A stretch of 48,615 bases of DNA from Limisphaerales bacterium (GTDB lineage Bacteria > Verrucomicrobiota > Verrucomicrobiia > Limisphaerales > UBA11358). The notes under the pieces were generated by a model. The model saw only the letters and a list, made by a program, of their open reading frames with translations. It had not been told where the DNA came from and searched no databases. The stretch is from NCBI GenBank assembly GCA_025362675.1, contig JANYFN010000166.1:1-48615 (forward strand), given 5' to 3'. Position 1 is the stretch's first letter; each line of letters opens with the position of its first letter. Below are positions 27,945 through 30,401 of this stretch, one piece after another. The position numbers and the translations under genes are program-made.

Positions 27945-28021
27945 TGGCGGGAGTGGCGGGGCTCGAACCCGTAACCTCTGCCGTGACAGGGCAGCGCTCT
28001 AACCAATTGAGCTACACCCCC
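27945..28021 (-). tRNA. tRNA-Asp (anticodon GTC)
   Basis: On the minus strand a full cloverleaf can be folded. The acceptor GGGGGTG pairs with CACTCCC (one G-T). U8-A9 and a D-arm AGCTCAATTGGTTAGAGC follow, then the anticodon stem CTGCC/GGCAG around CTGTCAC (anticodon GTC), and the T-arm ACGGG-TTCGAGC-CCCGC. The discriminator G is followed by an encoded CCA (27945-27947). Without CCA the gene spans 27948-28021. Confidence 0.96.
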
Positions 28022-28101
28022 GCGAAGGGGGACGGGACATTAAAAAATTTTCGGCGGCGCGTCAAGTTTTGCTTCGGGATGTTTTCAAAAAGATTTTCAT
28101 T

Positions 28102-28176
28102 AAGAAAATCCGGGCAGCAGACGCCAAGGAGGTGGGGGTGGGGAACCCCGCTGAAGAAACGTGCTGCTACCCGAAT
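28102..28176 (-). ncRNA. Candidate small RNA (~75 nt) with C-rich, anti-SD-like loop
   Basis: A strong promoter on the minus strand (next entry) predicts a start near 28176. The transcript would fold with its first and last 12 nt pairing completely (TTCGGGTAGCAG with CTGCTGCCCGGA, with G-U pairs). Five more pairs follow after a bulge, and then ATTTTCTT forms a terminator-like tail. The large loop contains CCCCACCCCCACCTCCTT, which includes CACCTCCTT, identical to the anti-Shine-Dalgarno end of 16S rRNA. It does not contain the SRP RNA tetraloop motif and does not look like 6S or tmRNA. No protein frame fits. The evidence is structural only; expression is unproven. Confidence 0.5.
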
Positions 28177-28182
28177 AAGGTC

Positions 28183-28210
28183 ATGTTACAGCCAGGTGAC
28201 AAATTGTCAA
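28183..28210 (-). promoter_or_regulatory. Consensus sigma70-type promoter for the candidate small RNA
   Basis: On the minus strand TTGACA (28210-28205) and TAACAT (28188-28183) are separated by 16 bp. The predicted start is at the A complementary to 28176. It could not serve mutL, which runs in the other direction, and the tRNA lies about 155 bp further on, beyond a terminator-like hairpin. Confidence 0.55.
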
Positions 28211-28361: not shown

Positions 28362-30401
28362 GTGAACTTCAAAATTCAGGAAGTGAATCGTATCAAGCTC
28401 CTTTCCGAACAGGTCGCCAACCAGATCGCCGCTGGCGAAGTGGTGGAACGCCCTGCCAGTGTCGTGAAGGAACTCGTCGAAAACTCCCTCGACGCGGACG
28501 CCAAAAAAATTACCGTCGAAATCGGCGCCGGCGGACGCAGTTTGATTCGCATCACAGACGACGGTTTTGGCATGAGCCGTGACGACGCCCTGCTCTCGCT
28601 GGAACGTCACGCGACGAGCAAAATCCAGCGAGCGGAAGATCTGGCCTCCATCGCCACAATGGGTTTTCGCGGCGAAGCCTTGCCCAGTATTGCGAGCGTG
28701 AGTCGTTTCACGTTGATGACGCGTGAGCGCGAAAGTGATTCGCCCGAAGGCTCGCAAATTATTGTGAATGGCGGGACGATCGCCGAAGTGAAAGCTTCCG
28801 GCGGGGCAACGGGCACAAGTATTGAGGTGCGGCAATTATTTTATAACCTGCCCGCGCGGCGTAAATTTCTTCGCACCGAGGAAACTGAAGCGGCGCACAT
28901 CCAACATTATCTCACGCTCGCCGCGCTCGCGTTTCCCGAAGTGGCATTTTCATTTGTTAAAGATGGGCGCAATGTCTGGCAGTTGCCGGCGGTCAAATCC
29001 GGCGTGGCCACTTCCAGTCGCATCGAGGCGTTGCGCGAACGACTCCGCGCCTTGCTGGGCCATGAAAAACTTCTGCCCGTAAACTTTTCTGCGACGCTCG
29101 CCGACCCAGGAAAAGAAAGACCGCCGGATGAAACGGATATTTTTGAAACTGCGTCGCCGGAAAAACCTGCCGAATCTGAAATCTCAAATCTGAAATCTCA
29201 AATCCGCGTTTGGGGTTTGATCGGCACGCCGGGCGTTTCCCGCGCGACGCGTGAGAGTCAATTCACATTTGTAAACCGTCGCCCCGTGGAAAATCGTGGA
29301 CTCAACTTCGCACTCATCGAGGGTTACCATAATTCGCTCATGAAAGGCCGCTATCCCGTCTGCTGCCTATTCATCGAAATTGATCCCGCCGCCGTGGACG
29401 TGAACATTCATCCCGCCAAACGCGAGGTGAAATTTCATCGCGAATTCGAAGTCCGGAAACATGTCGGGCAGGCAGTGCACGAAACTTTGCTTGCATTTCA
29501 TGGCGAGCCGCAACTTCAAAATCTCAAGTCCAAGGTCGCGGCCCAAGTCGAGTTTAAGCCAATCCACACAGACGCAGAACCCGCGCTGCCAAATTTTCCA
29601 GAGCGACCACAATTCTCGCCGCCCGCGGCCGCGCCGATTTCTGCCGCCGCGCAAACCCCTTTAAAACCAGGCTTCTCCGCGCCGATCTCGCCGAAAGTGG
29701 ATTTTATTCCGGGTTATCCGCCGGCGCCCGCAGCCATCGGGCGTCCGTCAAACTTTGCGCCCGATCCCGTTTTACGCACCACGCATCATGGCTCATCAAG
29801 CCCCGTGCCGCTGCTCGAGGTGCCGCTTCGCATGGTCGGCGTCATTGGCAAACTTTACGTCGTGCTCGAATCGGATCGCGGCCTCGTGTTGCTCGACCAG
29901 CATGCCGCGCACGAAAGGATTTTGTTCGAGCAAATGATGAACCGCATCGAAGCGAACACCGTCGCGCCGTCGCAAAAATTATTATTGCCGGAAACCGTTG
30001 AATTGCCACCGCGCGACGCTCAGTTTTTGCGCGAACAATTGCCCGCGCTCGCGCGGCTGGGCGTGGGGTTAAATGAATTCGGCGAGCGGACCTTTTTGTT
30101 GGATGCGCTGCCGCCGTTCGTGAAAGTGCCGGACTCGCGCCGCTTTGTGTTCGATCTCGTGGATGAATTGCGCGCTGCCGGCCGCGAGGTGAATCTCGCG
30201 CGCCTGGGCGAACACACCGTGGCGAAGACCGTCTGTCGTCACGCGGTAAAAGCCAACGACCCGCTCGGTGGCGCGGAGCTGGAAAATCTTGTCGAAGATT
30301 TACGTCGCTGCGCCATGCCCTACACCTGCCCGCACGGCCGACCGACGCTGATCGAAATGAATTATCGCGAGCTGGAGAAAAAGTTTGGACGGGTGCAATA
30401 A
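28362..30401 (+). CDS. mutL: DNA mismatch repair protein MutL
   Basis: MutL couples mismatch recognition by MutS to strand removal. The N-terminal GHKL ATPase is complete: IAAGEVVERPASVVKELVEN, the DDGFGM box, GFRGEALPSIASVS, and FVNRRPVENRGLN. The C-terminal domain keeps the latent-endonuclease motif DQHAAHERILFE (about residues 512-523) and CPHGRPT near the end, so this is the endonuclease-type MutL of bacteria without MutH. The 679-residue length is normal. The linker (about residues 265-490) is Pro/Ala-rich and includes a short repeat insertion (separate entry). The start is GTG 28362; the conserved core begins about a dozen residues later (IKLLSEQVANQIAAGE), so the exact start is not fixed. 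Confidence 0.97.
   Translation: MNFKIQEVNRIKLLSEQVANQIAAGEVVERPASVVKELVENSLDADAKKITVEIGAGGRSLIRITDDGFGMSRDDALLSLERHATSKIQRAEDLASIATMGFRGEALPSIASVSRFTLMTRERESDSPEGSQIIVNGGTIAEVKASGGATGTSIEVRQLFYNLPARRKFLRTEETEAAHIQHYLTLAALAFPEVAFSFVKDGRNVWQLPAVKSGVATSSRIEALRERLRALLGHEKLLPVNFSATLADPGKERPPDETDIFETASPEKPAESEISNLKSQIRVWGLIGTPGVSRATRESQFTFVNRRPVENRGLNFALIEGYHNSLMKGRYPVCCLFIEIDPAAVDVNIHPAKREVKFHREFEVRKHVGQAVHETLLAFHGEPQLQNLKSKVAAQVEFKPIHTDAEPALPNFPERPQFSPPAAAPISAAAQTPLKPGFSAPISPKVDFIPGYPPAPAAIGRPSNFAPDPVLRTTHHGSSSPVPLLEVPLRMVGVIGKLYVVLESDRGLVLLDQHAAHERILFEQMMNRIEANTVAPSQKLLLPETVELPPRDAQFLREQLPALARLGVGLNEFGERTFLLDALPPFVKVPDSRRFVFDLVDELRAAGREVNLARLGEHTVAKTVCRHAVKANDPLGGAELENLVEDLRRCAMPYTCPHGRPTLIEMNYRELEKKFGRVQ
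29173..29204 (+). repeat. 14-bp tandem repeat inserted in the MutL linker
   Basis: AATCTGAAATCTCA occurs twice in direct succession, followed by a partial third copy. It encodes the peptide SEISNLKSQI in the non-conserved linker of MutL. The same ISNLKS-type peptide appears in unrelated proteins of Planctomycetes and Verrucomicrobia (recollection), which fits a short dispersed repeat that tolerates in-frame insertion. Confidence 0.6.

Follow-up and report, generated by a model that had tools for sequence, protein, structure and literature searches.

Background

The small RNAs closest in design to the one described here are known from Alphaproteobacteria and Cyanobacteria. Hairpins of the alpha-r14 family, to which NfeR1 belongs, carry an ultraconserved CCUCCUCCC anti-Shine-Dalgarno (anti-SD) motif on highly variable stems, and NfeR1 silences ntrB by pairing at the ntrB initiation region, independently of Hfq (PMC10746234). 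Yfr1, a constitutive RNA, occurs in nearly all cyanobacteria, and its sibling RNAs carry the same motif (PMC6778093). A listing of organisms that are scarce in Shine-Dalgarno (SD) sequences and have a conserved CCUCC includes Akkermansia and another verrucomicrobium (PMC10783764).

Here we describe an RNA gene from a Limisphaerales bacterium (phylum Verrucomicrobiota), located in the window, i.e. the whole 48,615-nt stretch of DNA that was analysed. The gene is real, well-defined and absent from Rfam; among the possible mechanisms, a seed-pairing small RNA ranks first and a mimic of the 16S 3' end second.

Results

Promoter and flanks of the RNA gene

The gene lies on the minus strand, between tRNA-Asp(GUC) and mutL as the original prediction had placed it, and is present in a single copy in the source genome (Table 1). 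Along that strand, TTGACA is followed by a 16-nt spacer, TAACAT, a further 6 nt and AUUCGGGUAGCAGCACGUUUCUUCAGCGGGGUUCCCCACCCCCACCUCCUUGGCGUCUGCUGCCCGGAUUUUCUU. The predicted near-consensus promoter is therefore present, with 10 of 12 consensus positions, and its boxes are retained together with the RNA in genomes of the genus. Of 88 distinct copies linked to tRNA-Asp, 84 have TTGAC no more than 60 nt upstream, a motif contained in 5% of random 60-mers, and 67 have a run of four T behind the stem, as do 6% of random stretches; TTGAC was also present in the 60 nt upstream of 55 of the 132 copies not linked to tRNA-Asp. As for the predicted T-rich terminator, the tail itself is in place after the stem, but the site was not flagged by a generic terminator scan, the rule of which admits short loops only. 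In the source genome the RNA is followed on the minus strand by another hairpin, AT-rich and accompanied by a run of T (GATTTTCTTAATGAAAATCTTTTT; window 28085-28110), which is a possible back-up terminator ahead of tRNA-Asp.

Table 1. Features of the RNA locus, in window coordinates
Feature	Position	Strand	Basis or remark
-35 box TTGACA	28205..28210	-	sequence
-10 box TAACAT	28183..28188	-	sequence; TGTAACAT in most genomes of the genus
Small RNA gene, ~75 nt	28102..28176	-	putative ends, from promoter spacing and U tract
P1 helix, 5' arm AUUCGGGUAGCAGCACG, one bulge	28160..28176	-	covariation
Internal loop, 5' side UUUCUUCA	28152..28159	-	conserved in the order, variable outside
P2 helix, 5' arm GGGGU	28145..28149	-	compensatory changes
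Apical loop UCCCC	28140..28144	-	mostly UCCYC across the family
P2 helix, 3' arm ACCCC	28135..28139	-	compensatory changes
Unpaired octamer ACCUCCUU, identical to the 16S anti-SD	28126..28133	-	most conserved unpaired stretch of the family
P1 helix, 3' arm CGUCUGCUGCCCGGAU, also terminator stem	28108..28123	-	covariation
U-rich 3' tail UUUUCUU	28102..28108	-	sequence
tRNA-Asp(GUC), downstream neighbour of the RNA gene	27945..28021	-	ARAGORN; arrangement kept across the order
mutL, other flank of the RNA gene	28362-30401	+	

Fold and covariation

The 75-nt element folds with a free energy of -34.9 kcal/mol (RNAfold, z = -5.66), and none of 200 shuffled sequences was equally stable. Its ends (ATTCGGGTAGCAG...CTGCTGCCCGGAT) form 13 contiguous pairs, two of them G-U, where 12 had been claimed, and TTTTCTT comes after them. 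The C-rich stretch CCCCACCCCCACCTCC is indeed present, and CACCTCCTT within it matches the 16S 3' end, but the single loop of the original prediction gave way to a more elaborate shape: a long hairpin (P1) encloses a small one (P2, GGGGU/ACCCC with loop UCCCC), and ACCUCCUU is unpaired between the two helices. Across the predicted ensemble the unpaired letters are those of ACCUCCUU, which are mostly unpaired, and the GG after the octamer pairs within the RNA.

In an alignment of 13 sequences of the genus, made with MAFFT and without use of the structure, 98.9% of cells were able to pair and both-sided changes were seen at 11 of 21 pairs. Corresponding values for 74 divergent sequences, the alignment of which was fitted to the structure of covariance model R1 and thus leans towards it, were 96.7% and 19 of 21. 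In the latter set, 325 compensatory cells were counted versus 70 ± 9 in shuffles (0 of 500 shuffles reached any of the measures), and sliding the partners out of register lowered pairing to 39-52%. Single distant members also fold into agreeing structures. The sequence of P1 is free to vary (ATTCGGG..., AGTCCGG..., GGAAGGGCGG..., GATTCAGGAG..., ACGCAGTG...), and in P2 the pair of arms GGGGU/ACCCC is exchanged in a compensatory manner for GGACA/UGUCC, GGCCU/AGGCC and others.

Within the order, hardly any variation is seen on either side of the internal loop (UUUCUUCA and ACCUCCUUGG). In members from outside the class the 5' side of this loop drifts, and what persists is ACCUCCUUGG, the P2 helix and an apical loop rich in C and U; conservation of the octamer ranges from 91 to 100% per position in the order, class and phylum groups. 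A short open reading frame was ruled out as an explanation, given that conservation tracks base pairs and that frames across the element are not kept. At three loci from one family of the class P2 has been lost and the loop reads UUUCUCCU(U), which represents either a reduced variant or a convergent hairpin.

Distribution and genomic context

Matches were sought with two covariance models, R1, built from the 13 sequences of the genus, and a broader model, R2, used outside the class. Near-identical copies were present in 47 of 49 genomes of the genus, 46 of them recognised by covariance model and the last by an identical stretch of 51 nt. Across the order, R1 matched 265 of 320 genomes (143 of 154 good genomes, 109 of 118 genera). 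The search of relatives and the compensatory changes by which the original prediction was to be checked both came out in its favour. Matches in other orders of the class amounted to about 28 genomes, the weakest of which (E 1e-4 to 1e-6) are tentative, and R2 detected weaker relatives of the RNA in 26 sampled genomes, which belong to nine families outside the class. Numerous genomes sampled from other orders and classes gave no match, and the family is therefore near-universal in the order only. Named contigs with an exact match to the core were nearly all titled Verrucomicrobia, Limisphaerales or Pedosphaera. Limisphaerales-type copies were also seen at five loci in metagenome-assembled genome records titled Akkermansia muciniphila, Klebsiella pneumoniae, Desulfomonile tiedjei and Rhodoferax, one of them adjoining tRNA-Asp; these records are probably mislabelled bins. 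No phage or plasmid matched the RNA and only one viral contig did, and a mobile element was ruled out on these grounds.

At most loci across the order, tRNA-Asp(GUC) follows the main copy at a short distance and in the same orientation. This linkage was seen for 50 of the 104 named-contig copies with sufficient flanking sequence; the other copies are paralogues or have been rearranged. Diverged paralogues are located away from tRNA-Asp, with up to 10 copies per genome. Tandem pairs of RNA genes ~110 nt apart were observed at two loci (L045, 4985-5167; L184, 1098-1289), and integrase-like genes stood downstream of the RNA-linked tRNA-Asp at eight others; this tRNA gene seems to be a frequent integration site. 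A diverged sub-family adjoins peroxiredoxin-like genes, being upstream of them at three loci and downstream at two. A riboswitch or leader element was rejected, as no cis role is consistent: the RNA is found on either side of the peroxiredoxin gene and its other neighbours differ. Eight loci outside the class share a different conserved neighbourhood, with a gene for a small lipoprotein-like protein (motif CFR) on one side of the RNA and, on the other, an opposite-strand gene that may encode a glycogen-debranching-type enzyme.

Anti-SD octamer and SD usage

In five genomes drawn from the order and phylum, the 16S genes end in GGAUCACCUCCUUU, confirming GGATCACCTCCTTT as the 16S 3' end and making the exposed octamer ACCUCCUU exactly the anti-SD sequence. 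The letters that come after this end are UCUAAGGAG in four of the five genomes and UCUAAGGGG in the fifth. With UCUAAGGAG in this place, the anti-SD can pair with the trailer of its own precursor (CUCCUU/AAGGAG) in distant members of the phylum.

The octamer is complementary to AAGGAGGU, with a calculated duplex energy of -12.2 kcal/mol. Occurrences of AAGGAGGT-N3-9-ATG in 20 genomes of relatives numbered 118, versus 114 for a reversed-pattern control, i.e. the level expected by chance, and AGGAGG preceded just 3 of 1608 open reading frames in the loci examined. In one complete genome of the order, of which 1.6 Mb was covered, SD-like motifs were found before 15% of genes versus 12% at a control distance (57% of genes in E. 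coli), and AAGGAGG before 0.9% versus 0.1%, percentages that are approximate since the first ATG was taken as the start of each frame. Such low counts agree with the listing of verrucomicrobia as SD-scarce (PMC10783764).

The RNA had been proposed to bind G-rich ribosome-binding sites; as a general blocker of such sites it is ruled out, because these genomes contain perfect SD sites at no more than the chance rate. The RNA may have a few targets only, or may bind a protein. The few genes with a strong SD are the natural candidates for targets, none of them shown to be conserved. A search for the extended complement (GCCAAGGAGGT...ATG), itself a weak one, returned sporadic occurrences, several of which were the RNA gene itself, and no conserved target. 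Hfq was not found in 20 relatives, which does not count against an RNA that acts by pairing, as NfeR1 is also Hfq-independent.

Discussion

The element combines its own promoter, compensatory changes, a terminator tail and the lack of a conserved coding frame, as would be expected of a structured trans-encoded small RNA. Searches of Rfam 15 at the gathering cut-off returned tRNA only; up to an E value of 10 the window element had no match and a distant member no meaningful one. No description was found in literature searched by sequence and for verrucomicrobial anti-SD small RNAs. Covariation, conservation of promoter and synteny and the absence of an Rfam match all support the original prediction that this is a new small RNA containing an anti-SD segment.

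Starting from the structure, conservation, promoter, synteny and octamer observed computationally, we infer a constitutive trans-acting small RNA that pairs through its octamer, as a seed, with a few purine-rich mRNA sites, a reading that we favour and whose chances we judge to be evenly balanced. Transcription of the minus strand would start from the RNA's own sigma-70-type promoter and stop at its own terminator hairpin, and the P1/P2 architecture would hold ACCUCCUU single-stranded in the cell. The octamer could then base-pair with AAGGAGGU or shorter purine-rich sites, presumably with repression as the outcome. Since these bacteria seldom use SD sequences, the RNA would act on a limited number of mRNAs and not on translation as a whole. 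Conservation of the octamer in the face of varying helices and a varying opposite side of the loop is counted in favour of a seed role; the background frequency of perfect SD sites in the 20 relatives and the lack of a conserved target are counted against it, as is the identity of the octamer to the anti-SD over a phylum, which would equally suit a mimic. More tentatively, the RNA may have a housekeeping role in Verrucomicrobiota, as a copy of the anti-SD in bacteria that have largely abandoned SD-guided initiation. Under its control would be either those few mRNAs that bear an SD, or the proteins and maturation steps that act on the 16S 3' end. If so, it would connect a dedicated RNA to the loss of SD usage.

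Era is a GTPase that binds the 3'-end segment of 16S rRNA. A mimic of this end, serving as a decoy for or regulator of Era, of the ribosomal proteins that hold the anti-SD in SD-scarce bacteria or of another protein that reads it, strikes us as rather unlikely, even though the short hairpin and the (G)ACCUCCUU after it are reminiscent of helix 45 with GAUCACCUCCUU behind it, the hairpin directly 5' of the octamer is kept across the phylum, the octamer equals the anti-SD of 16S ends from the same lineages throughout, and the lineage is SD-scarce. Against this likeness, P2 (GGGGUUCCUCACCCC) has a UCCYC loop in place of the GGAA loop of helix 45, hairpin and octamer are 0-1 nt apart as opposed to 3-4 nt in 16S, and type-2 paralogues carry GCCUCCUU. 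A role in ribosome maturation, where CUCCUUGG of the RNA would form 8 bp with the CUAAGGAG that trails 16S and is otherwise the partner of the anti-SD, draws on the trailer sequences reported above and on the conserved GG after the octamer; however, pairing inside the RNA accounts for the GG, and its pairing with the anti-SD already constrains the trailer, which makes this role very unlikely in our estimation.

Recognition of the pyrimidine-rich internal loop as a fold, by a protein or ligand and not by pairing, would suit the pyrimidine-rich character of the apical loop and of both internal-loop sides, as well as the near-invariance of those sides within the order. Outside the order, however, the 5' side is not conserved whereas the octamer is, and we regard this explanation as unlikely. 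That the element is a mere transcription terminator or dispersed DNA repeat devoid of trans RNA function appears highly improbable: the hairpin with its U tract and the several dispersed copies per genome would fit, but a promoter stands directly ahead of the hairpin, terminators can do without an invariant unpaired stretch, and the main copy occupies the same place across the order, with no phage or plasmid matches.

The covariance model annotates a gene in hundreds of genomes where it is invisible to Rfam. This RNA is ultraconserved and near-universal in one order, and related RNAs occur in further classes of the phylum. Marked by an octamer that matches the anti-SD exactly, in genomes scarce in SD sequences, it also offers one defined locus at which to test why the anti-SD persists under such scarcity, and whether regulation by RNA helps to explain that persistence.

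Comparison with known systems

The 16S rRNA 3' end (helix 45 and the anti-SD) likewise presents ACCUCCUU after a short hairpin, but differs in helix sequence, loop and spacing, and the RNA described here is a separate small gene. The alpha-r14 RNAs (NfeR1 and SmelA075) share with it an unpaired anti-SD motif, variable stems and a sigma-70 promoter, and are established trans-acting, Hfq-independent small RNAs, whereas trans action is a proposal in the present case (PMC10746234, PMC3927594). They have three hairpins with CCUCCUCCC unpaired in each; here, a single P1 hairpin with P2 inside it presents ACCUCCUU once, in an internal loop. With another phylum, another architecture and no match in Rfam 15, the RNA does not belong to alpha-r14. 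Yfr1 and Yfr10 of Cyanobacteria are similarly small, with a conserved single-stranded CU-rich motif and siblings that share it (PMC6778093). They are near-universal in their own phylum, and the present RNA is near-universal in its order. In Yfr1 the motif differs from the 16S octamer and is flanked by two independent stem loops, instead of occupying the internal loop of one hairpin, and the differences in sequence and structure place the present RNA outside that family too. Falling outside both structural definitions, the RNA may resemble alpha-r14/NfeR1 and Yfr1 at most in the way it works.
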